This document shows positions 35,034-51,338 of a stretch of 64,000 bases of DNA, one piece after another. A model generated the notes under the pieces. That model saw only the letters and a program-made list of their open reading frames with translations. It did no database searches and was not told where the DNA came from. The stretch's first letter is position 1; each line of letters begins with the position of its first letter. Position numbers and translations under genes: made by a program. Source of the stretch: Desulfocarbo indianensis (GTDB lineage Bacteria > Desulfobacterota > Desulfarculia > Desulfarculales > Desulfarculaceae); assembly GCA_001184205.1 (NCBI GenBank), contig LBMP01000006.1, positions 285,503-349,502 of the forward strand. Direction: 5' to 3'.

Positions 35034-35981
35034 TCACTTGAGGATGGATTCGCTCACCTTGATGAGGGCCGGGCCGGCCATGACCGCCATGATGGCGGGA
35101 AAGATCAAGAAGAGAACCGGGAACAAAAGCTTCAGGGGCACCTTGGCCGCGGCCTCTTCCAGCTTCTGCCGCCGTTTGGTGCGCACGGTGTCGGAGTGCA
35201 CCCGCAGCGAGCGCCCCACGCTGACGCCGAAGCGGTCCGCCTGGATAAGCATGGTCACCAGGCTGGACACGTCATCCACCCCGCTGCGGTTGGCCAGGTT
35301 TTTAAGAGCCATTTGCCGGGGGATGCCGGCTTTCAGCTCCAGGGAGACCATGTTCAGTTCGCTGGCCATGATGGGGCAGCTCAGCTTTACTTCCCGCGCC
35401 ACCCGGCGAATGGCCGCGTCCAGGCCCAGACCCGCCTCCACCGCGATGACCAGCAGGTCCAGCACGTCGGGCAGCTCGCGGATGATGCGGTTGCGCCTTT
35501 TGCGGATGACCGAATCCAGCCAAAGGCCCGGCAGCATGAATCCCAGGCAAGCGCCGCCCACCAGGGCCAGCACGTACATGGGGCCCTGCAGGCGCGCACT
35601 CAGGGGAGTGAGCATCATGACGGGCGGCACGGACAGGCAAAGGGCGACCCTGATGCCCAGGTAGATGCTGACCGCATGCGGGGAGCGGAACCCGGCGAAA
35701 AGCATGTTGTTCTTGAGCTGGGTGAGCTGCCAGCTGCGGCGCGGCAGGGCCGGCTTGGCCAGGCGCCTCAGAAAGCTGACCAGCCCCCGCTTGACCGCCT
35801 CGCCGATCTCGCTGGCGGGCAGTGAGCTGCGCCCGGCGGCCAGGGCGTCCACCCGGCGCTTTACGGGATCGCGCCCCAGGGAAACCGCCCAGGCCAGGGC
35901 TCCCAAGCTGAGAACGGACAAGGCGATGAGGAGCGCCGCCGCCAGGGGCCCGGAATCCAAACTTAGACTTAACGAAGGCAT
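35034..35981 (-). CDS. tadC: Tad inner-membrane platform protein TadC
   Basis: A 315-residue GspF-domain membrane protein, the second of the paired inner-membrane platform proteins of Tad machines. It has an N-terminal helix (residues 10-35), a cytoplasmic GspF helical region (EAGLGLDAAIRRVAREV, LANRSGVDDVSSLVTMLIQ) and C-terminal membrane segments (LLFPVLFLIFPAIMAVMAG). It lies between tadB (7 bp) and tadD. Confidence 0.92.
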   Translation of the reverse strand: MPSLSLSLDSGPLAAALLIALSVLSLGALAWAVSLGRDPVKRRVDALAAGRSSLPASEIGEAVKRGLVSFLRRLAKPALPRRSWQLTQLKNNMLFAGFRSPHAVSIYLGIRVALCLSVPPVMMLTPLSARLQGPMYVLALVGGACLGFMLPGLWLDSVIRKRRNRIIRELPDVLDLLVIAVEAGLGLDAAIRRVAREVKLSCPIMASELNMVSLELKAGIPRQMALKNLANRSGVDDVSSLVTMLIQADRFGVSVGRSLRVHSDTVRTKRRQKLEEAAAKVPLKLLFPVLFLIFPAIMAVMAGPALIKVSESILK

Positions 35982-35988
35982 GCTTTCC

Positions 35989-36957
35989 TCACGCGTCCGT
36001 TTTGACCAGGCGTTTGATGACCACGATGCCCAAAAGCTGGAAAACGGCGCCTACGATGAGCATCATGTTGCCCATGGGATGGGTGAACAAAAGATCAACG
36101 TATTTGGGGCTGATGAACCAAAGCAGGCCCAACAGCACCGGCGTGGTGATGGACAGCACGGTGCCGGACAGGCGGCCCTCGGCCGAAAGCGCCTTCAGCT
36201 GCCTGATCAGGCGGAAGCGCTCGCGGATGATGTAGCTGATGTTGTCCAGAATTTCGGTGAGATTGCCGCCGGTCTCCCTTTGCAGGGTCACCGCGGTGGC
36301 GAAAAACTTGAGGTCCTGCAAACCCACTCTTTCCACCAGGTCGTTTAAGGCGTGCTCCATGGTTTTGCCGTAGGAATAATCAGCGAAAGTCTTGCCGAAC
36401 TCCTCGGCCACCGGGTCTTCCATTTCCTCGGCCACCATTTTCAAGGCCGAGCCGAAGCTGTGCCCGGCGCGCAGGGCGCGGCCCACCAGGTCCACCGCCT
36501 CGGGGAACTGCTCGTCAAAGGCGGCCAGGCGGCGCTTCCTTAGCGCCTTGAGCCAGATCACCGGCCCCAGGGCCCCCAGGAAAGCCAGGCCGCCGGCCAA
36601 GAGGCCGCTTCCCTGCACTATGCCGGCCAGGATTCCCATCAGGGCGAAAGTGCAGATCATGAGCGCCAGGGTGCCAAGGTTGCAGGGGTTGCCCGCCTGC
36701 AACAGGAGCAATCTCAAGTCCGAGAGCCGGGGCAGCTTCGCCAGTATCCGGTCCAGCAGGGGAATGGTGGAGAGCGAGGTGTCGCGCATGAGACCGCGCA
36801 GGGCTTCCCCGGCCGCGTCCGGGCCGGGGCTGAAGGTTTTCACCCGGCGGCGGCGGTTCTCCTCGCGCCTGATATCGCGGCGGAAGGCCACCATGCCCAG
36901 CGCCAGGGCCAGGCAGATCAGGCAGAGGAACACCAGGGCGATGAAGAGGTAGAACAT
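35989..36957 (-). CDS. tadB: Tad inner-membrane platform protein TadB
   Basis: A 322-residue GspF-domain protein with an N-terminal membrane helix (residues 2-24), a basic stretch, two central helices and a C-terminal pair. The GspF core reads FPEAVDLVGRALRAGHSFGSAL and TGGNLTEILDNISYIIRERF. The ATG at 36957 overlaps the tadA stop (TGATG), with GGAGG six bases upstream; the frame is open further upstream inside tadA. Confidence 0.93.
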   Translation of the reverse strand: MFYLFIALVFLCLICLALALGMVAFRRDIRREENRRRRVKTFSPGPDAAGEALRGLMRDTSLSTIPLLDRILAKLPRLSDLRLLLLQAGNPCNLGTLALMICTFALMGILAGIVQGSGLLAGGLAFLGALGPVIWLKALRKRRLAAFDEQFPEAVDLVGRALRAGHSFGSALKMVAEEMEDPVAEEFGKTFADYSYGKTMEHALNDLVERVGLQDLKFFATAVTLQRETGGNLTEILDNISYIIRERFRLIRQLKALSAEGRLSGTVLSITTPVLLGLLWFISPKYVDLLFTHPMGNMMLIVGAVFQLLGIVVIKRLVKTDA

Positions 36958-38315
36958 CAGAGGCCTCCTCCCTGACGGTGTTCCGAGAACAGTCCGCTGT
37001 CCAGCTCGATACCGAAGCTCCTGATGCGGTCGGCGCAGCGGGGCCGGATGCCGGTGGGGCCGAAATGGCCCGTCACCTTGCCGCGCTCGTCCAACCCGGT
37101 CTGGGTGAATTTGAAAATCTCCTGCATGGTGATGGTGTCGCCCTCCATGCCGGTGATTTCCTGGAAGCTGACCAGGCGGCGCGAGCCGTCGGACAGGCGC
37201 ACCAACTGAATGATAACGTGCACCGCGCTGGCCACCTGCTGGCGCAGGGCCTTGTCCGGGATGTCCATGCCGGCCATGGACATGAGGGTTTCCAAGCGGG
37301 AGAGCGCGTCGCGGGGGGTGTTGGCGTGCACCGTGGTCAGCGAGCCGTCGTGGCCGGTGTTCATGGCCTGCATCATGTCCAGGGCCTCGCCGCCGCGCAC
37401 CTCGCCCACCACGATGCGGTCGGGCCGCATGCGCAGGGAGTTGCGCACCAGGTCGCGCAGGGTGACCTCGCCGTGGCCTTCGATGTTGGGGGGGCGGGTC
37501 TCCATGCGCACCACGTGCTCCTGCTGCAATTGCAGCTCGGCCGAGTCCTCGATGGTCACGATGCGCTCGCGCCTGGGGATGAAGGAACTGAGCACGTTGA
37601 GCATGGTGGTCTTGCCGGTGCCGGTGCCGCCGGAGATGAGCACGTTTAGCCGCGACTTGACCACCGCCTCCAAAAGCTTGGCCGCGGCCTGGCTGATGGT
37701 GCCCAGCTTGACCAGGTCGTCCACCTTGAGGGGGTCCACCGCGAACTTGCGGATGGAGAGCGACGGCCCGTCCAGGGTGAGCGGCGGTATGATGGCGTTG
37801 ACGCGGCTGCCGTCGGCCAGGCGGGCATCCACCATGGGCGAGGATTCGTCTATGCGGCGGCCCACCGCCGAGGCGATCTTGTCGATGATTTTCAGCAGAT
37901 GCTGATCGTTGCGGAAGCGGATGCTCACTTTTTCCAACCGGCCCTTGCGCTCCACGAACACCCGGTTGTAGGAATTGACCAGGATGTCGCTCACCGTGGG
38001 GTCGGCCAGGAGCGGCTCCAGGGGGCCCAGGCCCAGCACCTCGTTCTTGATCTCGCGGACCAGGTTTTCCCGCTCGCCCTGGCTCAAGGGGTCGGGCTCG
38101 GAATCCACCACCGAGCGGATGACCGTTTCCAGCTCCTTTTCGCTTTCCGCGGTGGGGCTTTCGCCCAAAAGCGAGAGGTCCGTTTGATCGATGACCTTGT
38201 AATGGACCCTGCCCTTCAGGTCCTGCAGGGCGCACTCCCTGGCCTCGTCCACCCGGATTTCGGTGGATACCAATTTCAAGGGGCCCTTTTGCCCCAGGCG
38301 TTCGCGCAGGCTCAT
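36957..38315 (-). CDS. tadA: Tad secretion ATPase TadA/CpaF
   Basis: The hexameric ATPase that drives Flp pilus assembly. 452 residues. Visible motifs are the N-terminal three-helix region, the Walker [12 protein letters not shown] near residue 229, [14 protein letters not shown] (Asp box), [19 protein letters not shown] (Walker B) and a His box near [13 protein letters not shown]. It overlaps tadZ by four bases and tadB by one, so the genes are translationally coupled. Confidence 0.96.
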
Positions 38316-39463
38316 GCCGCGGCCTCTTCGCCGGGCTGGTCAAGGAGGGGCAGCTCCTGGGCCAGGCGGCTCACCGCCTGGGACCATTTGGCCTTGGGCC
38401 AGTCGCGCAGGGCGGGGCAGCCGGAATTGATGGCCTCCAGGATCAGGCGGCTGTCGTTGGGCAGAAAGGCCAGGGGCTTGACCCCCAAGGCCCGCAGCAC
38501 GTCGGCCTGGCTCAGGCAACCCTTGGCCCCGTCGCGGTTCACCACCATGTGCATCTTTTCCGGGGCGTGGCCCAGGCGGGAGGAAAGGCTTAGAAAGCGG
38601 CTGGCTCCGGCCAGGCCCACCACCGTGGGCTCCACCACCACCAAAACCGCGTCGGCCCGGTCCAGGGCCAAAAGGCTCACCTCGTCCAGGCGCGAGGGCA
38701 GATCCAGCACCACCAGGCTGTTGGAATCCAGGAGATGATCCAGGGCGCGGGACACGTGCTCCGGCTTCACCTCCTCGGCGGCCACCGGATCGGAAGGCGC
38801 GGCCAGGAGCCGCAAGCCCGGCGCGGCCTCGGTCAAAAGGCTGTCTATGAGCACCGCGTCCAGGTGATCGTAGTTTACGGCCACGTCGGAGATGTCCCGC
38901 TTGTGGTCCTGATCCATGAGCACGGCCAGGTCGCCCGAGTAAAGATCCAAATCCACCAGGGCCACGTTGCCCGCCTCGGGGTCGCGGCTGTAGGACCAGG
39001 CCAGGTTCAGGGCCAGATGGCTGGTGCCCACGCCGCCCTTGACGCCGATCACCGCCAGCAGGCGGCCGGCCGGCTGGCCCGCGAAATGGCTCTGCCGGGC
39101 CAGGCGCAGCACCGCGTCGCTGAAGGAACTGGCGGGCGCGGGCTCCACCAGGTATTCGCGCACGCCCAGGCGCATGGCGGCCATGATGTCGTCGGGCTCC
39201 CTGGAACTGGCCAGGGCCACCACCGCCCCGCGGGGCACGGCGCGCCGCAGCCGCTCCAGAAGATCGCCGAAGCCGTTGACCCCATGGGCCAACTCCACCA
39301 GCATGATCTGGGGCTGCAGCTTGAGCGCCTTTTTCTCGAACTCCTCGGGCGAGCCTTCCAGGCCGGCCAGCTTGGCCACCGGCGAGGCGGACACCAGCTC
39401 GCGCAGGCGCTCGGCCCCTTGGCGGGTCTGGTGCAGGGCCAGGACTTGGGACTCGCTGTTCAT
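38312..39463 (-). CDS. tadZ: Tad localisation ATPase TadZ/CpaE
   Basis: A 383-residue MinD/ParA-like protein that places the Tad machine at its site in the cell. The N-terminal ~130 residues look like an atypical receiver domain (ending VREYLVEP). The ATPase domain has a deviant Walker [18 protein letters not shown], and [14 protein letters not shown] as the Walker B region. It lies between tadG (10 bp) and tadA (4-bp overlap). Confidence 0.93.
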
Positions 39464-39473
39464 CGCATCTCTC

Positions 39474-40544
39474 CTAATTGGCGGCGACCAGCTTGGGATT
39501 GCTGGCCCGCGCCCCGAAATTCGGGCCGCCCGTATCGGCGGTGGGGATTATGGTGCCGCATCTGATGGTTCCCCGCACGTCCTTGTGAGGCGAGGTGCGC
39601 ACCTCGTTGATGGTGAAGGTGGCGAATCCCCTCACCTCGGCCCTCCCGGAGTTGGCTTCGTCGGGTATCACCGGCAGGATGACGGTCCACTCGTCGGCGT
39701 CGCCGTCGCCGTCGGTGTCAATGCCTTCGCGCTCGAAGCGGTCTTGCAGATGGGCGAAGACGAAGTTGCTTAGGTTGCCGTTAACGATGTTGATCGTGTC
39801 GCCGATTTCCAAAAAGGGAACCGTGTAGCAATCGCAAATGAAATTATCCACGGTGTTGCTGTTGGCCGGCCAGCGGTTGAAGCTGGTCCAGGACCCGTTC
39901 TCGTCGTTTTCATTGTGGAATTCCACGGAGCTTCCGCAATAGGGGCTGTCTCCGTTGCTGATGGCGCTTTCCTTGATGGCGATGGGGATGCCCACGCCGC
40001 CGCCCCTGGGCACCGCCTGGGGATAGCCCACGAAGGCCAGCGATTTGGCCTGCACGTCAACCTGGCTCACTCCCACGATGCCCGCGAACATGGTGGTGAC
40101 CGGGGAGTTGGCCAGATCATCCTTGCGCAGGGTGACCTCCACCGCGTTCAGATCGTCCGGGTTGGCGCTCTCGCCGATGCGCGTGAAGGCCTGGGCGTCC
40201 AGGTCCCACAAGCCGATGGTGTAGTCGGGGTCCAGCAGGATCAGGCTGTTTCCCAGGGCCTTGTTAGACAGGGAGAGCTGGTGGGCCGTGGCCCGGGCCT
40301 CTTGCGGGGTGGTGGTTATGGTGTAGGTTTGCGCATCGTAGGTGAACATGCTCTTGGCCGCGGCCAGGGCGGCCGAATCGGCCGCGTTTTGCAGCTGACC
40401 CCTGGCGCTGTAGATCACGCCGAGGTCGGTGGCGGCGCCGGTCAGGCCCACCAGGCCGGTCAGCATGACGGCCATCGCCACGGCCACCGCGCCGCGCTCC
40501 TCTCGCCAAAGCCTCGCTAAAACCGTTTTAAAACGGAAGCTCAT
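39474..40544 (-). CDS. tadG: TadG-like pilus assembly protein
   Basis: A 356-residue protein starting with the TadG-like N-terminal segment: REERGAVAVAMAVMLTGLVG is a membrane helix after a short basic stretch, and QLQNAADSAALAAAKS follows, as in this family. The rest is a large exported domain with paired Cys (YCGSS, FICDCY) and a calcium-like DTDGDGDADE loop near residue 288. ATG 40544 overlaps the secretin gene by 17 bp and has GGGAGG seven bases upstream. Confidence 0.87.
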   Translation of the reverse strand: MSFRFKTVLARLWREERGAVAVAMAVMLTGLVGLTGAATDLGVIYSARGQLQNAADSAALAAAKSMFTYDAQTYTITTTPQEARATAHQLSLSNKALGNSLILLDPDYTIGLWDLDAQAFTRIGESANPDDLNAVEVTLRKDDLANSPVTTMFAGIVGVSQVDVQAKSLAFVGYPQAVPRGGGVGIPIAIKESAISNGDSPYCGSSVEFHNENDENGSWTSFNRWPANSNTVDNFICDCYTVPFLEIGDTINIVNGNLSNFVFAHLQDRFEREGIDTDGDGDADEWTVILPVIPDEANSGRAEVRGFATFTINEVRTSPHKDVRGTIRCGTIIPTADTGGPNFGARASNPKLVAAN

Positions 40545-42024
40545 GTCCGAACCTCCCTTCAAGTTCCTTGGGTGAGCGCGGGACGCCGGCTCCCTTGGCT
40601 CCCGCATCGCTGCCCATCTCCACCATTTTCCCCATGTAGATGTCCCACTCGCTGGGCATCTTAAGGTTGTCGGTGGGCAGGCTGGGGGCGCCCTGGCCGG
40701 GAGTGACTATTTCGGGGGTGACTACGATCACCAATTCAGTCTTCTTGTGCTGGAACTCGGTGCTCCTGAACAAGGCCCCCAGGATGGGGATGTCGCCCAG
40801 GATGGGTATCTTGGAAACCACTTGGGTCAGATCGTCGCGGAACAGGCCGGCCATGCCGAAGCTCTGGTGGTTGTCCAGCTCCAGTTGGGTCTTGGCCCGG
40901 CGGGTGGTCAGGCCCGGCACCGCGTAGCCCTGAATCACCACCGCGGTGCTGAAATCCAGATCGCTGACCTCCGGCTCCACCTCCAGGCGTATCTTGCCGG
41001 TGGAGAGCACCGTGGGCTTGAATTTCAGCTTGACGCCGAACTTCTTGAAGATGATGGTGATGTTCTCTTTTTGGGGAACCGGGATGGGGAACTCGCCGCC
41101 GGCCAGGAAGTCGGCCTCCTGGCCGCTGGCCGCCACCAGGTTGGGCTCGGCCAGCACCTTGGCCAGGCCGTTTTCCTTGAGCACATCCAAAAAGCCCATG
41201 ATGCGGTGGTCCTTGTTCCAGGTGAAGCCGCCGGCTATGTTCATCTTGCTGGACATGTTCAGGTCGTAGGGCGGGCGGCTGAAGGGGTTGATGCCGCGTT
41301 CAGAGTACTCGGTGCCGGGCAGGTCCCATTTTTCCGAGGGCAGCAAGGGGCCGGTGAGGCCGCCCAGGAAGGTGTTGAAGAAGTTGCCGGTGAGGTCGCG
41401 ATAGCCCAGGTTGACCTTGAGCTTTTTCAGGGCGTCGCGCCGCACCTCGGCGAAACGCACCTTCAAGGTGACCTGCTTCACCGCGCCGACCTCCAGGAGG
41501 TCGATCACGTAGCCCGGCAGTTTGAGCTCCTTGTGCATGGCGTCGGCCATATCCTGCCGGGGCACCAGAGCCATGGCCAGGGAATTGGCCCGCTTCTTGG
41601 CGTCCTCGCTGGAGACCCGGCCCGAAAGCACCACCGTGCCCTGCAATTCCCGAATCTCCACCGGCTCGTCGGGTAAAACTTGGTGCATGCGCTCCTTGAG
41701 CAGGCTCAAATCCCGCTGCACCTCCACCAGGAACATGCCGATGAGCTTGTCGCCTGGAGCCCAAAGGGTGATGTTGGTGGAGCCGGGGCTCTTGCCGTTG
41801 AGGTAGAGCTGATGGGTGTTTATCACCACCACGTCGCAGATGGCCGGCGCCCCCACGCTCACCCGCTGGATCTTCCTGGGAAGCTTGATCAAGCGGGTGT
41901 GGCCTATCTTCAGCTCCACCTGGGGAAGGGTCGCCTGCTCCGCACCGCCGCCGGCCAGGGCGCAGCGCCCGAAAGCCAGCAACATAAGGCAGGCAAGGCT
42001 TACTTTAAGCGCTTGAGATAACAC
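40528..42024 (-). CDS. rcpA: Tad outer-membrane secretin RcpA/CpaC
   Basis: The outer-membrane channel of the Tad machine. 498 residues with a signal peptide (hydrophobic core residues 8-22), a pilus-biogenesis N-terminal domain (IKLPRKIQRVSVGAPAICDV), a BON-like segment (VVLSGRVSSEDAKKRA) and a secretin C-domain (VKLKFKPTVLSTGKIRLEVE, VPGLTTRRAKTQLELD, VSKIPILGDIPILGALFRS). It overlaps rcpC by 25 bp. Confidence 0.95.
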   Translation of the reverse strand: MLSQALKVSLACLMLLAFGRCALAGGGAEQATLPQVELKIGHTRLIKLPRKIQRVSVGAPAICDVVVINTHQLYLNGKSPGSTNITLWAPGDKLIGMFLVEVQRDLSLLKERMHQVLPDEPVEIRELQGTVVLSGRVSSEDAKKRANSLAMALVPRQDMADAMHKELKLPGYVIDLLEVGAVKQVTLKVRFAEVRRDALKKLKVNLGYRDLTGNFFNTFLGGLTGPLLPSEKWDLPGTEYSERGINPFSRPPYDLNMSSKMNIAGGFTWNKDHRIMGFLDVLKENGLAKVLAEPNLVAASGQEADFLAGGEFPIPVPQKENITIIFKKFGVKLKFKPTVLSTGKIRLEVEPEVSDLDFSTAVVIQGYAVPGLTTRRAKTQLELDNHQSFGMAGLFRDDLTQVVSKIPILGDIPILGALFRSTEFQHKKTELVIVVTPEIVTPGQGAPSLPTDNLKMPSEWDIYMGKMVEMGSDAGAKGAGVPRSPKELEGRFGHELPF

Positions 42025-42938
42025 GGGACGTCTACTCCACCTGATTCAGCAGCCGAGCCGCCGGAGGCTGCTTGGGCTACTTGGGCGCTTGGACGCTTGT
42101 TAGAGGAACTGACCACCCCCAGCCCTTCCTGTTGCACGCGAACCACGCCTTTGATGATCTCCACCGTCGGCCGTTTTTCCGCCTGCGCCACCTTGTCTCC
42201 GCCCTTGCCCGTGGTAATGGGCAGGAGGGTGGTCAGGCGCACGCCCTTGGAGTTAAGCTCCCGGTCGTCGGCGTGGTTGCGCAGAGACAAAATCAATTTG
42301 CCCTCGTTGCCCGCCAGGGCCAGGGTTTCGCCCTGCAAGGGGGTGACCTGCAGCGTCACCACCTTGGACCGGTCCTGCCGGGGCTTCTTGGCGTCATTGC
42401 TGTGGGAGGTGTTTTCCCCCACCGTGAGAACGGTCACCCCCTGCAGCACGGTTCTGGCGATGGGGTCTTGCTGATAAGGCCCCTTGGCTATGGTGGCCAA
42501 GACGTCCACCTGGTCGCCGGGCTGCACAAAGCCGCCCACTCCGATCACCTCGTCGATCCTCACGGTCATGGCGCGGTAGCCCTCGGGCACCACGGCGCTC
42601 AGGCCGCCGGCCATGCCCTTGGGGGCCAATTTGCCGTTCAGAATGGGCTCGCCCTTGCTGGCGGCGGTCCGCAGAACCCGGCCGGACAGGGTTTTGACGG
42701 AACTGAAAGCGCCCTGGGGCAGGCCGGCCTGGGGCCAACGGGTGACGCTCAGATCCCCCTGGTCCAGAACCTGTCCGGCGGGCAGGTCCCGGGAGGCCAC
42801 GATGACCGGCGTCAAGGCGATGCGGCTGGCCGCGGCCACGGCGCCCTGCCGCTGAATCCACTTATGGGCGGCGAAAGCGGCGGCGGCGGCCAAGACGATG
42901 GCCATGACCAAAAAGATGAGGCTTCCCTTGCGCAGCAT
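42000..42938 (-). CDS. rcpC: Tad pilus assembly protein RcpC/CpaB
   Basis: A 312-residue periplasmic protein anchored by an N-terminal helix (residues 6-24). A SAF domain (VIVASRDLPAGQVLDQGDL) is followed by the RcpC/CpaB region (DEVIGVGGFVQPGDQVDVLA). In other Tad systems it supports the secretin channel. It lies 11 bp downstream of tadE. Confidence 0.92.
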   Translation of the reverse strand: MLRKGSLIFLVMAIVLAAAAAFAAHKWIQRQGAVAAASRIALTPVIVASRDLPAGQVLDQGDLSVTRWPQAGLPQGAFSSVKTLSGRVLRTAASKGEPILNGKLAPKGMAGGLSAVVPEGYRAMTVRIDEVIGVGGFVQPGDQVDVLATIAKGPYQQDPIARTVLQGVTVLTVGENTSHSNDAKKPRQDRSKVVTLQVTPLQGETLALAGNEGKLILSLRNHADDRELNSKGVRLTTLLPITTGKGGDKVAQAEKRPTVEIIKGVVRVQQEGLGVVSSSNKRPSAQVAQAASGGSAAESGGVDVPCYLKRLK

Positions 42939-42949
42939 TGCCCAACCTC

Positions 42950-43360
42950 CTACTCGTGCCGCATTACCGTGGTGGCGTTTAAGATGAGGCTGGAGGGCAC
43001 TCCGGGCACCAGGTTCCCCAGGACGGACAGTTGATGATTGCCGGCGATGGCCACCGTGACCAAGTTGCCCGTGGAGCCGGACGCGCCGGTGCTGGTAACC
43101 TGCACCTGGCCGGGGAAGCCGGCGCGGTTAAGCAGATTGGCCACGAAAGCTTCCACTTCCGAGTCGTCGCCGCCTTCGAAAAGCGCGCCCAGGCGGGCGC
43201 CTTCCCGGCTGGCGCTGACCAGCATTTGCTTGGAGTACCAGGCCGAGCCCAACTCGACGATGGCGAAGACAAAGGTGAGGAACAAGGGCAAAAGCAGGGT
43301 GAACTCCACCACCACCGAGCCCCGCTCGCCTTTGGCCAGGCGCGCCAAAAACCTCAGCAT
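42950..43360 (-). CDS. tadE: TadE-like pseudopilin
   Basis: A 136-residue minor pilin of the Tad system. After a short basic leader, GSVVVEFTLLLPLFLTFVFA shows the Gly cleavage site with Glu at mature position 5 and a hydrophobic helix, as in TadE. The start at 43360 has GGAGG six bases upstream and overlaps the prepilin peptidase gene by seven bases. No separate TadF is visible. Confidence 0.88.
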   Translation of the reverse strand: MLRFLARLAKGERGSVVVEFTLLLPLFLTFVFAIVELGSAWYSKQMLVSASREGARLGALFEGGDDSEVEAFVANLLNRAGFPGQVQVTSTGASGSTGNLVTVAIAGNHQLSVLGNLVPGVPSSLILNATTVMRHE

Positions 43361-43935
43361 GGCATGCCTCCCTGCAGCACCAGAAGGAAAGCTCCGCTGG
43401 CCACGGCCAGGCCGTAGGGCATGGTGAGGCCCGGCGCCGGGCGCAGGCCTTGGCGCGCGGCGATCATGCGGCCGGCGGCCAGGACGCCGCCCGCCAGGGC
43501 GGTAAGCACGAAAAGCATGAGGGCCGGCCAGGGAGCCAAAAAGCAGCCCAATGCCCCCAGGGCCTTCACGTCGCCCGCGCCCACCGCGCCGAAGATGTGG
43601 AAAACCAGCATGAGGCCGAAGCCGATGGCGCCCCCCAAAAGCGCCTGGGACAAGCCGGTCCAGCCCCCGGCCAAAAGGCCCCAGCCCAGCCCGCCGATCG
43701 CGGCGAGGGCGGTGAGTTGATTGGGGATGCGGCGGGTGGCCAAGTCGGAGCTGGCCATGAGGGCGGCCAGCAAAAGAAAAGTCGCGCTCTTTAGGCCGGC
43801 GGGGTCGCCGGCCTGGCCGAGCAGCCAGGGCAAGCTGGCCAGAGCGGGGAGGAGGCCCCATTGGGCCCCTCCCAGCTCCGCCAAGGCGTTGTCTTGCCGG
43901 GGGGTAGGCATACCCATACCCCGTCCACGCACCAA
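43354..43935 (-). CDS. tadV: Flp prepilin peptidase TadV/CpaA
   Basis: A membrane aspartic peptidase that matures the Flp prepilin and pseudopilins. It has about six hydrophobic segments. The two catalytic Asp lie in SSDLATRRIPN and GAGDVKALGALG (GxGD motif). It lacks the N-terminal methylase part, as usual for TadV/CpaA. The start is uncertain: GTG at 43935 or ATG a few codons later. It starts close behind flp. Confidence 0.9.
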   Translation of the reverse strand: MVRGRGMGMPTPRQDNALAELGGAQWGLLPALASLPWLLGQAGDPAGLKSATFLLLAALMASSDLATRRIPNQLTALAAIGGLGWGLLAGGWTGLSQALLGGAIGFGLMLVFHIFGAVGAGDVKALGALGCFLAPWPALMLFVLTALAGGVLAAGRMIAARQGLRPAPGLTMPYGLAVASGAFLLVLQGGMPC

Positions 43936-44707: not shown

Positions 44708-46099
44708 TCAATGCTTGCGGCGGCGGCGGGCTTGCAGCAGGGGATGGTCCAGGTCTATTTTGTCCAGCTTGTAGGAAAGCGCTCGGGGGGTGATGCCCAA
44801 GAGCTCCGCCGCCCGGCTTTGCACCCAGTCGGTCCTTTCCAGGGCGGTCTTGATGGCCCAGCGTTCCAGCTCTTCCAGGTCCAGGGTGGGCGGGGAGGGC
44901 TCTTCGGCCTGTCCTTTGAGGCTGCCTTCGCCCAGTCCCAGGTCGGCCAGGCTCAGTTCGTTGCCGCCCGAGAACAGCATGGCCCGCTCCACGGCGTTGC
45001 GCAGCTCGCGGATGTTGCCCGGCCAAGTGTGTGCGGTGAGCTTTTCCATGGCCGCCTGGGAAAGCGGTTTCATCTGCTGGCGGGATTCCGCGCAGATGGA
45101 GCGCAGGAATTTATCGGCCAGGGGGATTATGTCCGCCCGCCGCTCGCGCAGGGGCGGAATGAAAATGGGCGTTACGTTGAGCCGGTAGAACAGGTCCCTG
45201 CGGAAGCTGCCTTCGCGCACCGCCTGCTCCAGGTCCACGTTGGTGGCCGCCACGATGCGGACGTCCACCTGAATGGAGCGGGAGCCGCCCACCCGCTGGA
45301 TAACCTTGTCCTCTATGGCCCTCAGCACCTTGGCCTGAATGGCGGGGCTCATGTCGCCCACTTCGTCCAGGAACAGGGTGCCGCCGTGGGCCTGTTGAAA
45401 GCGTCCGGCCCGGGCCTTGTGGGCCCCGGTGAAAGCGCCTTTTTCGTGGCCGAACAGCTCGCTTTCCAAAAGCGTTTCCGTGAGCGCCGCGCAGTTCACC
45501 GTCACCAGGGCGCCCTTGTGGCGCGGGCTGTTGGCGTGGATGGCGCCGGCGACAAGGCTCTTGCCCACCCCGGTCTCGCCGGTGAGCAGCACGGTCACGT
45601 CGGTGGGCGAAACCCTGGCCACCTGGCGCAGCACCTCTTTCATGGCGTCGGATTCGGCCAGGATGTTGTCCAGCCGGTAGATATAGGGCTGCTCGTGGCG
45701 CAGGTAGTCATAGGCGTGGTGCAGGGCGGCCTTTTCCAGGGCCCTGTCCACCGTGAGCAGCATGTGCTCCAGGTTCAGCGGTTTCTCATGGAAGTCAAAG
45801 GCCCCGGCCCGCATGGCCTCCACCGCCGAATCCACGCTGCCGAAACCGGTCATGATTATCACTTCGGTGTGCTGGGAATACTCTTGCACGTGGGCCAGGA
45901 TCTCCAGCCCCTCGCCGTTCTCGGGTATGCGCAGATCGCTTATCACCAACTGAAAAACATGGTTCTTCAGCGATTCAAGGGCGCTGGTCACGTCGGCCGC
46001 CTCAGCCACCCGGTGGCCCTCCAGGATGAGGGCCTCGCTGAGAATAGCGCGCAGATGATCGTCGTCGTCAACTATCAGGATGTGACTGGCCGGGGCCAT
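44708..46099 (-). CDS. NtrC-type sigma-54 response regulator
   Basis: A 463-residue enhancer-binding protein: a receiver domain (residues 1-120, phospho-acceptor Asp in VISDLRI), AAA+ (about 140-370, Walker A GETGVGKS, intact GAFTGA loop) and a Fis-type helix-turn-helix (ERTDWVQSRAAELLGITPRA). It is the last of four signalling genes and lies 591 bp upstream of flp in the same direction. It is the obvious candidate activator of the tad promoter and perhaps of the tandem RNAs near 49 kb; this is inference. Confidence 0.94.
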   Translation of the reverse strand: MAPASHILIVDDDDHLRAILSEALILEGHRVAEAADVTSALESLKNHVFQLVISDLRIPENGEGLEILAHVQEYSQHTEVIIMTGFGSVDSAVEAMRAGAFDFHEKPLNLEHMLLTVDRALEKAALHHAYDYLRHEQPYIYRLDNILAESDAMKEVLRQVARVSPTDVTVLLTGETGVGKSLVAGAIHANSPRHKGALVTVNCAALTETLLESELFGHEKGAFTGAHKARAGRFQQAHGGTLFLDEVGDMSPAIQAKVLRAIEDKVIQRVGGSRSIQVDVRIVAATNVDLEQAVREGSFRRDLFYRLNVTPIFIPPLRERRADIIPLADKFLRSICAESRQQMKPLSQAAMEKLTAHTWPGNIRELRNAVERAMLFSGGNELSLADLGLGEGSLKGQAEEPSPPTLDLEELERWAIKTALERTDWVQSRAAELLGITPRALSYKLDKIDLDHPLLQARRRRKH

Positions 46100-48956: not shown

Positions 48957-48973
48957 TTTGGCAAGCCTATTGC
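48957..48973 (+). promoter_or_regulatory. sigma-54 promoter of tandem RNA 1
   Basis: TTTGGCAAGCCTATTGC has GG (48960-48961) and GC (48972-48973) separated by ten bases, a strong -24/-12 match. Start of transcription predicted near 48985. Confidence 0.7.
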
Positions 48974-49060
48974 ATTACAAAAAAGCGATTGCGCCTCACG
49001 CCGAGGCACTCTCCCAACAGGGGCAGGCAGGGAGGGTGGTAAGGCTGGGGCGCAACGCTT
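48957..49060 (+). repeat. 104-bp tandem repeat unit, copy 1 (promoter plus RNA)
   Basis: 97 of 104 bases match 49139-49242. The repeat begins exactly at the -24 element and ends at the closing helix of the predicted RNA. Confidence 0.9.
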
Positions 49061-49062
49061 TT
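48985..49062 (+). ncRNA. predicted sigma-54-dependent small RNA, copy 1
   Basis: Predicted ~78-nt RNA. Its 5' end pairs with its 3' end: 48984-48987 and 48989-48998 with 49059-49046 around one bulged A, and the helix continues with 49000-49002 and 49043-49045. An inner 9-bp hairpin joins 49007-49015 to 49030-49038 around the 14-base loop AACAGGGGCAGGCA. TTTT follows the closing helix, as in an intrinsic terminator. Transcription runs away from the kinase gene at 48849. No protein-coding potential is seen. Confidence 0.6.
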
Positions 49063-49138
49063 GGCGCCGTGAAGAGGGATTCGTTCATATCTTGGTAAAT
49101 TGACAGCTATTTTCGCGTTTAATCATAGCGCCGGGCCT

Positions 49139-49155
49139 TTTGGCAAGCCTATTGC
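49139..49155 (+). promoter_or_regulatory. sigma-54 promoter of tandem RNA 2
   Basis: Identical to the copy 1 promoter: TTTGGCAAGCCTATTGC, with -24 GG at 49142-49143 and -12 GC at 49154-49155. Start predicted near 49167. Confidence 0.7.
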
Positions 49156-49242
49156 ATTACAAGAAAGCGATTGCGCCTCACGCTGAGGCACTCTCCCAAC
49201 AGGGGCAGGCAGGGAGGGTGATAAAGCTGAGGCGCAATCCTT
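49139..49242 (+). repeat. 104-bp tandem repeat unit, copy 2 (promoter plus RNA)
   Basis: Differs from copy 1 at the positions matching 48981, 49002, 49039, 49043, 49048, 49056 and 49057. The 78-base spacer between copies is unrelated to the rest. Confidence 0.9.
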
Positions 49243-49246
49243 ATTT
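49167..49246 (+). ncRNA. predicted sigma-54-dependent small RNA, copy 2
   Basis: Predicted ~80-nt RNA, 182 bases downstream of copy 1. The closing helix GATTGCGCCTCA (49169-49180) with TGAGGCGCAATC (49228-49239) is a perfect 12-bp match, then CTTATTT follows. The inner hairpin is identical to copy 1. Compared with copy 1, a C-G pair has become U-A (49184 with 49225) and a G-U has become A-U (49230), so substitutions keep the fold. Confidence 0.6.
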
Positions 49247-49372: not shown

Positions 49373-49455
49373 AGGTGGAGTTAAAAATAACTGGGTTATT
49401 CAGTTTGTCCTGAAAATAAGGCGAAATGACCCTAATAGAATCGGCAATAAATTAC

Positions 49456-49899
49456 CTAATCGGGCATTTCGGTAAGGTTTACGTGGTAGAATCGGCTATT
49501 ATTCAAGGAAGCCTGTTCTTCCAAAAGTAACTTCGCGGTATCAACGAAACGATCAAGGTCGCGGAGCTTATCGAGAAAGGCTCTCGCTCCAGCCTCGCGG
49601 CAACGGCTGGGCATGCGGGGGTCGCCATGGGCCGACAGCATGAGCACCGCCGGGCGATATTCGCCGGGAAGGGCATTGATCAGCTCCTGACAGAGTTCCA
49701 CCCCGCTGGTATCCGGCAGGCGGACGTCCAGCACCATGAGCTGGGGAGGTTCTTGGGTGTTGAAACACCAATCCCGGGCTGTCTGGCCGTTTTCACAGCT
49801 CACCACCAGCCATCCTTCGGCCGAAAGCATGGCCATATACAACGTTGCGGTGTCCGCATCGTCTTCCACTAAAAGTACCAGGGGCGGTTTGGCGTTCAA
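49456..49899 (-). CDS. single-domain response regulator
   Basis: A 147-residue receiver domain: acidic LVEDDADTATLY, phospho-acceptor Asp in MVLDVRLPDTSG, Ser in VLMLSAHG, and Lys in FLDKLRDLD. The ~20-residue C-terminal tail is not a known output domain. It overlaps the upstream PAS kinase gene by four bases, which makes a cognate pair likely. Confidence 0.9.
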   Translation of the reverse strand: MNAKPPLVLLVEDDADTATLYMAMLSAEGWLVVSCENGQTARDWCFNTQEPPQLMVLDVRLPDTSGVELCQELINALPGEYRPAVLMLSAHGDPRMPSRCREAGARAFLDKLRDLDRFVDTAKLLLEEQASLNNSRFYHVNLTEMPD

Positions 49900-51338
49900 T
49901 AGACGGCCTCCAAAAGCACGGTGAAGCAGGTGCCCACGCCAGGTTCGCTTTCCACGCTGATATGACCGCCATGCAGGCGCACAATCTCCTGCACCAGGCT
50001 GAGGCCGATGCCCAGGCCCTCCAGCCGCCCGGTGCCCGAAAGGTCGGCGCGGTAGAACCGGTTGAAAATTTTCGCCATGTGTTCTCTAGCCATTCCCACG
50101 CCGGAATCGGTCACCTTGAACTCGACCCGGTTATCCAGCTTCTCAAGACCGACGGTCACCTGACCGCCTTCCTTATTATATTTGACCGCATTCAGAAGCA
50201 GGTTGTCCACTAATTGAATTAGTTTTTCCGCATTACCCATGACCATGACCGGCGCGGGGGTCACCTGCGTCAGGTCCAGGCTCACGTCCCTTTCCGCGGC
50301 CATGGCGCGCAGATTGTCCGCCTCGGTCCTGATGAGCTTGCCAAGCTCCACCTGGCCCATTTCGTACTGATCCTTGGCGTGGGCCAATCTGGCCAGATCC
50401 AAAAGATTGTTTATCTGGGTCTCCAGCTTGCTGAGGTTGCGCCAGCATATTTCAAGATAATTCTGCTTGTCCTCGGGCTTCATGCGGCCGGAAAGCATGA
50501 GTTGCAAGAACCCCTTAAGGGAAACCAGCGGAGTCTTGAGTTCGTGGCTCAAGGTCGTGAGGAATTGATCCTTTAGCTCTTCCACGTTTTTTATCTCCTC
50601 CAACGCCTTTTCCAACGCCGTGGATTTGGATAATAGCTCCCGGTGCAACAGTTCCCGTTGGGTGACGTCTCGCAAAATGGCCCCCAGCACCCAGGGCTGC
50701 CCCTCGGGGCCGCGCTCCAGGGAAATGCTGGCCTCCACCTGCAGCCAGTCCTGGCCGGTTTTCACGCGGCCCTTTTGCAAGCCTTCCTTGCCGCTGACGG
50801 CCGCATCCCAGCCCTCGTCCAGGGATACGAAGCGTTCCACCGATTGGCCCAGGACCTCGTTGCGCAAAAGGCCCACGGTCCGGCAAAAGGCTTGATTGGC
50901 GTCCAGGATGTGTCCTCCCGCCGGGCTGAGGGAAAGAAACATGTCAGGAGCGGCCTCGAAGAAGCGGCGGTAAAGGCTTAAGTAATCCACCAGGGCTTCC
51001 CGTAGCACCTGGATGGCGATGCCCAGGCGGCCCAGTTCGGCCAGGTAGGAAGGCCAGTCGTCCAGGGTTTCGGGCTCGCCCAGGGCCAGAGAGTGGCAAT
51101 GCTCGATCAAAAGGTCCACTTGCCGGGTCAGGCGGCGGTTCCACAGCCAACCCGCCAGCATGGCGACGGCTGCGGCGCAGGCCATGACGGTAAGGCTCAG
51201 GCCCCACAAGGTAAAGGAATACGGTTCCGGCAGATACCATATGGCCAGCAGGCATAGCGCCAGGAGAGGCGTTAAAGTCAGCGTCACCAAGACGCCCGCG
51301 GTCTTGACCAGGGACCAGTTCAGCATCTGCTGCACCAT
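49896..51338 (-). CDS. membrane PAS-domain histidine kinase
   Basis: A 480-residue kinase with two N-terminal membrane helices (about residues 14-33 and 40-65), a HAMP-length linker, a PAS domain (about 110-235), a phospho-His helix (FLTTLSHELKTPLVSLKGFL) and an ATPase domain with NLLLNAVKYN, DSGVGMA and GLGIGLSLVQEI. There is almost no periplasmic loop, so the signal is probably membrane-borne or cytoplasmic through PAS. Start uncertain: MVQQ or MLNW. Confidence 0.9.
   Translation of the reverse strand: MVQQMLNWSLVKTAGVLVTLTLTPLLALCLLAIWYLPEPYSFTLWGLSLTVMACAAAVAMLAGWLWNRRLTRQVDLLIEHCHSLALGEPETLDDWPSYLAELGRLGIAIQVLREALVDYLSLYRRFFEAAPDMFLSLSPAGGHILDANQAFCRTVGLLRNEVLGQSVERFVSLDEGWDAAVSGKEGLQKGRVKTGQDWLQVEASISLERGPEGQPWVLGAILRDVTQRELLHRELLSKSTALEKALEEIKNVEELKDQFLTTLSHELKTPLVSLKGFLQLMLSGRMKPEDKQNYLEICWRNLSKLETQINNLLDLARLAHAKDQYEMGQVELGKLIRTEADNLRAMAAERDVSLDLTQVTPAPVMVMGNAEKLIQLVDNLLLNAVKYNKEGGQVTVGLEKLDNRVEFKVTDSGVGMAREHMAKIFNRFYRADLSGTGRLEGLGIGLSLVQEIVRLHGGHISVESEPGVGTCFTVLLEAVY

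Follow-up and report, generated by a model that had tools for sequence, protein, structure and literature searches.

In the window, by which we mean the whole stretch of 64,000 nucleotides from Desulfocarbo indianensis that was analysed, a 104-bp unit occurs twice in tandem (48957-49060 and 49139-49242). The units are followed by a spacer with an array of palindromes and, on the opposite strand, by genes for a stand-alone receiver and a histidine kinase, and on the other side lie a gene for an NtrC-type sigma-54 activator and a Tad pilus cluster (Table 1). A repeat search found the two units to be 93% identical and 182 bp apart, as originally claimed, and the seven positions at which copy A differs from copy B (48981, 49002, 49039, 49043, 49048, 49056, and 49057) matched the earlier list. 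Position 48981 is located between promoter and start and position 49039 is unpaired; at the five differences within helices, pairing is kept in all cases. Specifically, the pair C49002-G49043 of copy A is U-A in copy B, U48996-G49048 likewise becomes U-A, and the changes at 49056 and 49057 in copy B re-pair with 48987 and 48988. Each unit features a perfect -24/-12 element, and counting 12 nucleotides from the C of the -12 element placed the predicted transcription starts at 48985 and 49167, in agreement with the original prediction. The motif TTGGC-N7-TTGCW occurs only twice in the 64-kb window, once per copy, with 0.6 occurrences expected by chance. The predicted RNAs have folding energies of -46.6 and -43.2 kcal/mol (z scores of -5.7 and -5.5), and none of 200 shuffled sequences folded as well. 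The minus strand of both units folds nearly as stably as the plus strand, so that the strand call rests on promoter, terminator, and covariation. No further copies besides the two tandem ones were found in the 5.1-Mb genome.

Table 1. Features of the RNA locus in the window
Feature	Position	Strand	Basis
Sigma-54 -24/-12 promoter element, copy A, TTGGCAAGCCTATTGCA	48958..48974	+	Exact match to a motif with two occurrences in the window
Predicted sRNA, copy A	48985..49063	+	Fold z -5.7, covariance model, comparative alignment; end at T-tract 49059-49062
14-nt apical loop, copy A, AACAGGGGCAGGCA	49016..49029	+	22-copy alignment
Sigma-54 -24/-12 promoter element, copy B	49140..49156	+	Exact motif match
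Predicted sRNA, copy B, +1 at 49167	49167..49246	+	Fold, covariance model, copy comparison
Apical loop, copy B, identical to copy A loop	49198..49211	+	Repeat and alignment
Palindrome site 1, TAAGGCGAAATGACCCTA	49417..49434	.	PWM score 12.9
Palindrome site 2, TCGGCAATAAATTACCTA, 24 bp from site 1	49441..49458	.	PWM score 16.5, best in window
Palindrome site 3, degenerate in the window	about 49479-49496		
Stand-alone receiver (Response_reg) gene, convergent with the RNA	49456..49899	-	Pfam PF00072 3.9e-18; synteny cluster c1
PAS-HisKA-HATPase histidine kinase, at every RNA locus	49896..51338	-	Pfam; synteny
NtrC-type sigma-54 activator beside Tad cluster; possible regulator	44708..46099	-	Pfam

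The Desulfarculaceae are relatives of sulfate reducers. A plain DNA search detected relatives of the RNA in 12 of 20 genomes of this family, and with a covariance model derived from 15 copies the number rose to 17, including one closed genome of 3.66 Mb, in which the locus lies near 2,934,100. Another genome (G015) has the kinase and the palindrome array, but its contig breaks off shortly beyond the array and does not reach the expected RNA site. The alignment of 22 homologous copies (alignment A2) displayed changes on both sides for 16 of the 19 helix pairs. Two-sided pair changes occupied 47 cells, compared with a mean of 17 after shuffling, and the covariation value was 0.44 for the proposed pairing and at most 0.19 for slid pairings, i.e., sliding the partners abolishes the signal. 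Covarying homologues were thus found when related genomes were checked with the covariance model, and covariation was far above both controls. The outer helix is highly variable among the copies, its pairing being maintained by paired changes; in copy G016b, almost the entire helix is replaced. Of the 14 positions of the apical loop, A-S-AGGGGCAGGCA-G (S is C or G), 13 do not vary among the 22 homologues. A -24/-12 element scoring 9 to 10 of 10 and located 57 to 62 nt before the loop was present in 18 of 19 syntenic copies, the single copy lacking a clear promoter (G012) being situated at a contig end. With the predicted starts in place, these covarying homologues bear out the proposal of two tandem, putatively sigma-54-driven structured RNAs. 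The window copies end in a short T-tract (CTTTTGG, CCTTATTTG), and in most homologues T5 to T7 directly follows the outer, closing helix. Consequently, the predicted RNA appears to serve as its own intrinsic terminator by means of this helix. Taken together, the genome comparison showed that structure, promoter, and locus of the predicted RNA are conserved across the Desulfarculaceae.

Tandem pairs are found in genomes G000 and G017. Within each of these genomes, the copies resemble each other more closely than the copies of other genomes, which indicates that the duplication (or conversion) arose separately. The RNA model also matched a third site in G017 (C61:7737-7825), beside the two intact copies; this match is degenerate and lacks the conserved loop. 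The same loop also sits on three extra hairpins (G016 C153, G010 C62, and G012 C9), all devoid of a -24/-12 element; apart from these, a hairpin-only model run across the genomes yielded no convincing sites beyond the family loci. The loop is identical at the three sites (L191, about 5040, minus strand; L194, about 5034, plus strand; L193, about 5034, minus strand). One of these hairpins is positioned 3′ of a TadE/G-like gene and another 3′ of a gene for a PAS-LuxR regulator, and T5 follows both. The extra hairpins may reflect spreading of the loop on terminators.

Outside the Desulfarculaceae, covariance models found nothing convincing in 63 genomes of the class and 395 sampled genomes of the phylum. 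Weak matches in G043, G031, G049, G030, G203, G230, G311, and G346 were rejected, as loop or promoter was absent where these matches were read. Scanning 84,980 species for a 17-nt core gave true copies only in Desulfarculus sp., in Desulfarculaceae bacterium JdFR-95, and in deltaproteobacterial metagenome-assembled genomes (MAGs); the other core matches had neither structure nor promoter. Viral and plasmid collections contained no match to the RNA. The RNA is not represented in Rfam 15, which gave no family at the gathering cut-off for the window, and for 13 homologous loci returned only two unrelated tRNAs. A search of the open-access literature retrieved no description of the family. These elements therefore constitute a real and apparently undescribed RNA family, located at one shared chromosomal site in nearly all sequenced Desulfarculaceae.

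At this site, the RNA gene is always convergent to the same PAS-HisKA-HATPase kinase gene. Orthologs of the kinase, 55 to 68% identical to the window protein, are encoded in 18 of the 20 genomes, which are exactly those with the RNA or, in the case of G015, with the cut contig; the two genomes without the kinase (G018 and G019) also lack the RNA. Between RNA and kinase, most loci have the receiver gene; none was identified at G011. The gene upstream of the RNA varies by genus, encoding a divergent kinase, a SurA-like protein, or a macrodomain protein. Neither in the window nor at the homologous loci is there a same-strand gene downstream of the RNA, so that it is not a leader. The NtrC-type activator gene had been proposed as the neighbouring regulator of the RNA. 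This proposal is partly supported: the adjacency holds in genus g1 and in some genomes of g5, but elsewhere the ortholog is unlinked, and no palindrome array was found at the unlinked activator loci of the relatives. The suggested membership in a Tad pilus regulon was not supported: Tad cluster and RNA are neighbours in the window, but this is not the case in genera g2, g3, and g4, and, with the activator beside the RNA in no more than g1 and part of g5, such a regulon offers no general explanation. In the window, the Tad pilus cluster spans 35034-43861 on the minus strand, with a likely Flp pilin gene upstream at about 44117-43943, also on the minus strand.

The spacer between the RNA and the receiver gene features three 18-bp palindromes with the consensus TCGGGCAATATTGCCCGA, spaced by about 24 bp and then by 37 to 40 bp and positioned some 200 to 280 bp downstream of the predicted RNA start. 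This three-palindrome array is a previously unreported element. A matrix trained without genus g3 detected 21 sites in eight g3 spacers, compared with 0.17 in shuffled sequences, and a matrix trained on g3 detected 18 sites in the remaining genomes, compared with 0.1 in shuffled sequences; no sites were present in the 300 bp upstream of the RNA. Near-perfect motifs and strong array matches occur at the RNA locus and are very rare elsewhere in the genomes, and the array is weak or incomplete in G002, in G011, and in the window. Of the spacer, only the palindromes are conserved. In genus g3, the DNA upstream of the RNA is not conserved, and in G001 some 20 bp separate the end of a gene from the promoter that follows it; the array is therefore the best candidate for the activator sites, and its palindromes probably represent enhancer sites for the activator of the RNA. 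Downstream sigma-54 enhancers are known from Caulobacter (works cited in PMC3096577).

A search for Hfq (PF17209) was negative in all 20 Desulfarculaceae genomes, and a control search was positive in known hosts; Hfq is the usual protein helper of such RNAs. CsrA is absent from all eight genomes of genus g3, all of which bear the RNA, and is present in relatives of this genus. Unlike the repeated GGA loops of CsrA/RsmA sponges, the RNA has a single loop with no GGA within it. With no Hfq in 20 genomes and no CsrA in g3, dependence on Hfq is excluded for the RNA, and so is a role as CsrA sponge. Searching for complements of the loop revealed no conserved mRNA target: the complements are located mostly in coding DNA, their recurrence is explained by the protein sequence, and scanning the window disclosed no notable complement near gene starts. 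The 12-mer AGGGGCAGGCAG occurs one to eight times per genome in the 20 genomes, and almost none of the additional copies is part of such a hairpin, most of them falling in what appears to be coding DNA. In six genomes (L263-L268), the sequence CCTGCCCC, with a ribosome site and an ATG behind it, is found a short distance before the gene of an orthologous sigma-54 regulator; the regulator proteins are 68 to 94% identical, and their operon with a kinase is strongly conserved. A feedback on this regulator resembling that of Qrr on luxO was considered and rejected: the letters of CCTGCCCC are codons for Leu-Pro-Leu, with which the upstream kinase ends, and hence their recurrence is no evidence of targeting.

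We consider it likely that each unit is a complete, enhancer-activated sigma-54 sRNA gene whose loop acts in trans without Hfq. According to this reading, RNA polymerase with sigma-54 would start at 48985 or 49167 and yield an RNA of approximately 80 nt consisting essentially of one long hairpin. Its variable but covarying outer helix would function as intrinsic terminator, and its apical helix would present the nearly invariant G-rich loop of 14 nt (N-A-S-AGGGGCAGGCA). An enhancer-binding protein would switch on transcription, most likely from the array 3′ of the RNA, and activation would be tied to the pathway of the adjacent histidine kinase. Less certain than this activation step is the mode of action: the RNA would work in trans and independently of Hfq, making contact through its invariant loop. 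For this contact we favour, with moderate confidence, base pairing between the G-rich loop and C-rich stretches of mRNA. Tandem duplication, separate in two lineages, would raise the dosage of the RNA. More tentatively, and with rather less than even probability, kinase, receiver, downstream three-palindrome enhancer, and single-hairpin RNA may form a dedicated signalling module of the Desulfarculaceae that operates as a unit and in which a protein or RNA partner of the invariant loop takes over from Hfq and CsrA.

The near-complete invariance of 14 nucleotides atop freely changing helices would also suit contact with a protein, as would the recurrence of this loop at three further loci, where two of the hairpins that carry it resemble terminators and lie 3′ of genes. 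The RNA might accordingly be a decoy that sequesters an RNA-binding protein in the way CrcZ and CsrB sequester theirs. We regard this as unlikely, though well worth weighing: both known proteins are excluded (Hfq in 0 of 20 genomes, CsrA in 0 of 8 g3 genomes), and the hairpin-only model leaves no same-shaped mRNA sites to compete. Since the loop was found with confidence at just three other places, the RNA is unlikely to stand in as decoy for a large set of mRNA hairpins with this shape; a protein with other binding sites is a possible loop partner. Strict convergence with the kinase gene, and the joint absence of kinase and RNA, would fit a cis-acting element, with the RNA or its transcription controlling the convergent kinase-receiver operon by antisense pairing or collision. 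This possibility has a low probability, given that each RNA is followed by a terminator some 200 to 400 nt before the end of the receiver gene, that the spacer is unconserved apart from the palindromes, and that the invariance of the loop would be left unexplained.

The U-run at the end of the hairpin and the orphan copies 3′ of genes could suggest that the hairpin terminates transcripts of neighbouring genes or protects them from decay and is not an RNA in its own right, but the upstream gene differs among genera and yet the -24/-12 element right before the helix is kept, which renders this explanation highly improbable. Least probable of all, with hardly any weight, is a mobile repeat of the MITE or REP type merely resembling a small RNA. 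It would account for two near-identical copies with inverted-repeat structure, but the window genome has two adjacent copies only, the promoter is conserved outside the repeat structure, and the helices evolve by compensatory change. Homologues scattered through genomes, as would be anticipated for a MITE, were looked for; instead, each relative has one syntenic locus and, a few orphans aside, no scattered copies, and the MITE alternative was rejected on these grounds.

The proposed trans-acting, sigma-54-dependent RNA shares features with several known systems. The Vibrio RNAs Qrr1-5 (LuxO/sigma-54) have a sigma-54 start at the RNA 5′ end, multiple near-identical copies, and a conserved core, all of which recall the Desulfarculaceae RNA; Qrr RNAs need Hfq, whereas the Desulfarculaceae hosts are devoid of it, and there is no Rfam match. 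CrcZ and CrcY of Pseudomonas (CbrB/sigma-54) are likewise sigma-54-driven RNAs with NtrC-type activation, and CrcZ is a long decoy for Hfq/Crc. The parallel drawn with CrcZ in the original prediction fails mechanistically, because Hfq is absent from these genomes. The system with the most similar organisation is that of Pxr, a sigma-54-dependent sRNA of Myxococcus xanthus and its relatives whose gene lies next to those for an NtrC-type response regulator and a histidine kinase; Pxr is lineage-restricted, has paralogous copies in some species, and occurs in a host without hfq (PMC5568312, PMC5684412). Shared traits are the sigma-54 promoter, a regulator and a kinase nearby, paralogues, and the lack of hfq. 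Pxr is predicted to have three stem-loops (PMC5684412) and an enhancer region upstream (PMC5568312, PMC5684412); compared with this description, the Desulfarculaceae RNA is one long hairpin with an invariant G-rich loop and conserved palindromes only downstream. In Desulfovibrio vulgaris, Dv_sRNA2 is a target of the response regulator DVU0679 and is located downstream of the regulator gene (PMC3333781). Similarity consists in a sulfate-reducer sRNA being targeted by a single response regulator; differing from Dv_sRNA2 as described, the Desulfarculaceae RNA is convergent to a kinase-receiver pair, is a single hairpin, and has a downstream array.

For bacteria of this branch, the question arises of how small RNAs work without Hfq, as it does for Pxr of Myxococcus. 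In the Desulfarculaceae, which lack Hfq and in part also CsrA, the locus provides an RNA family that is backed by covariation and whose promoter is defined, whose genomic partner is fixed, and for which there is a candidate enhancer.
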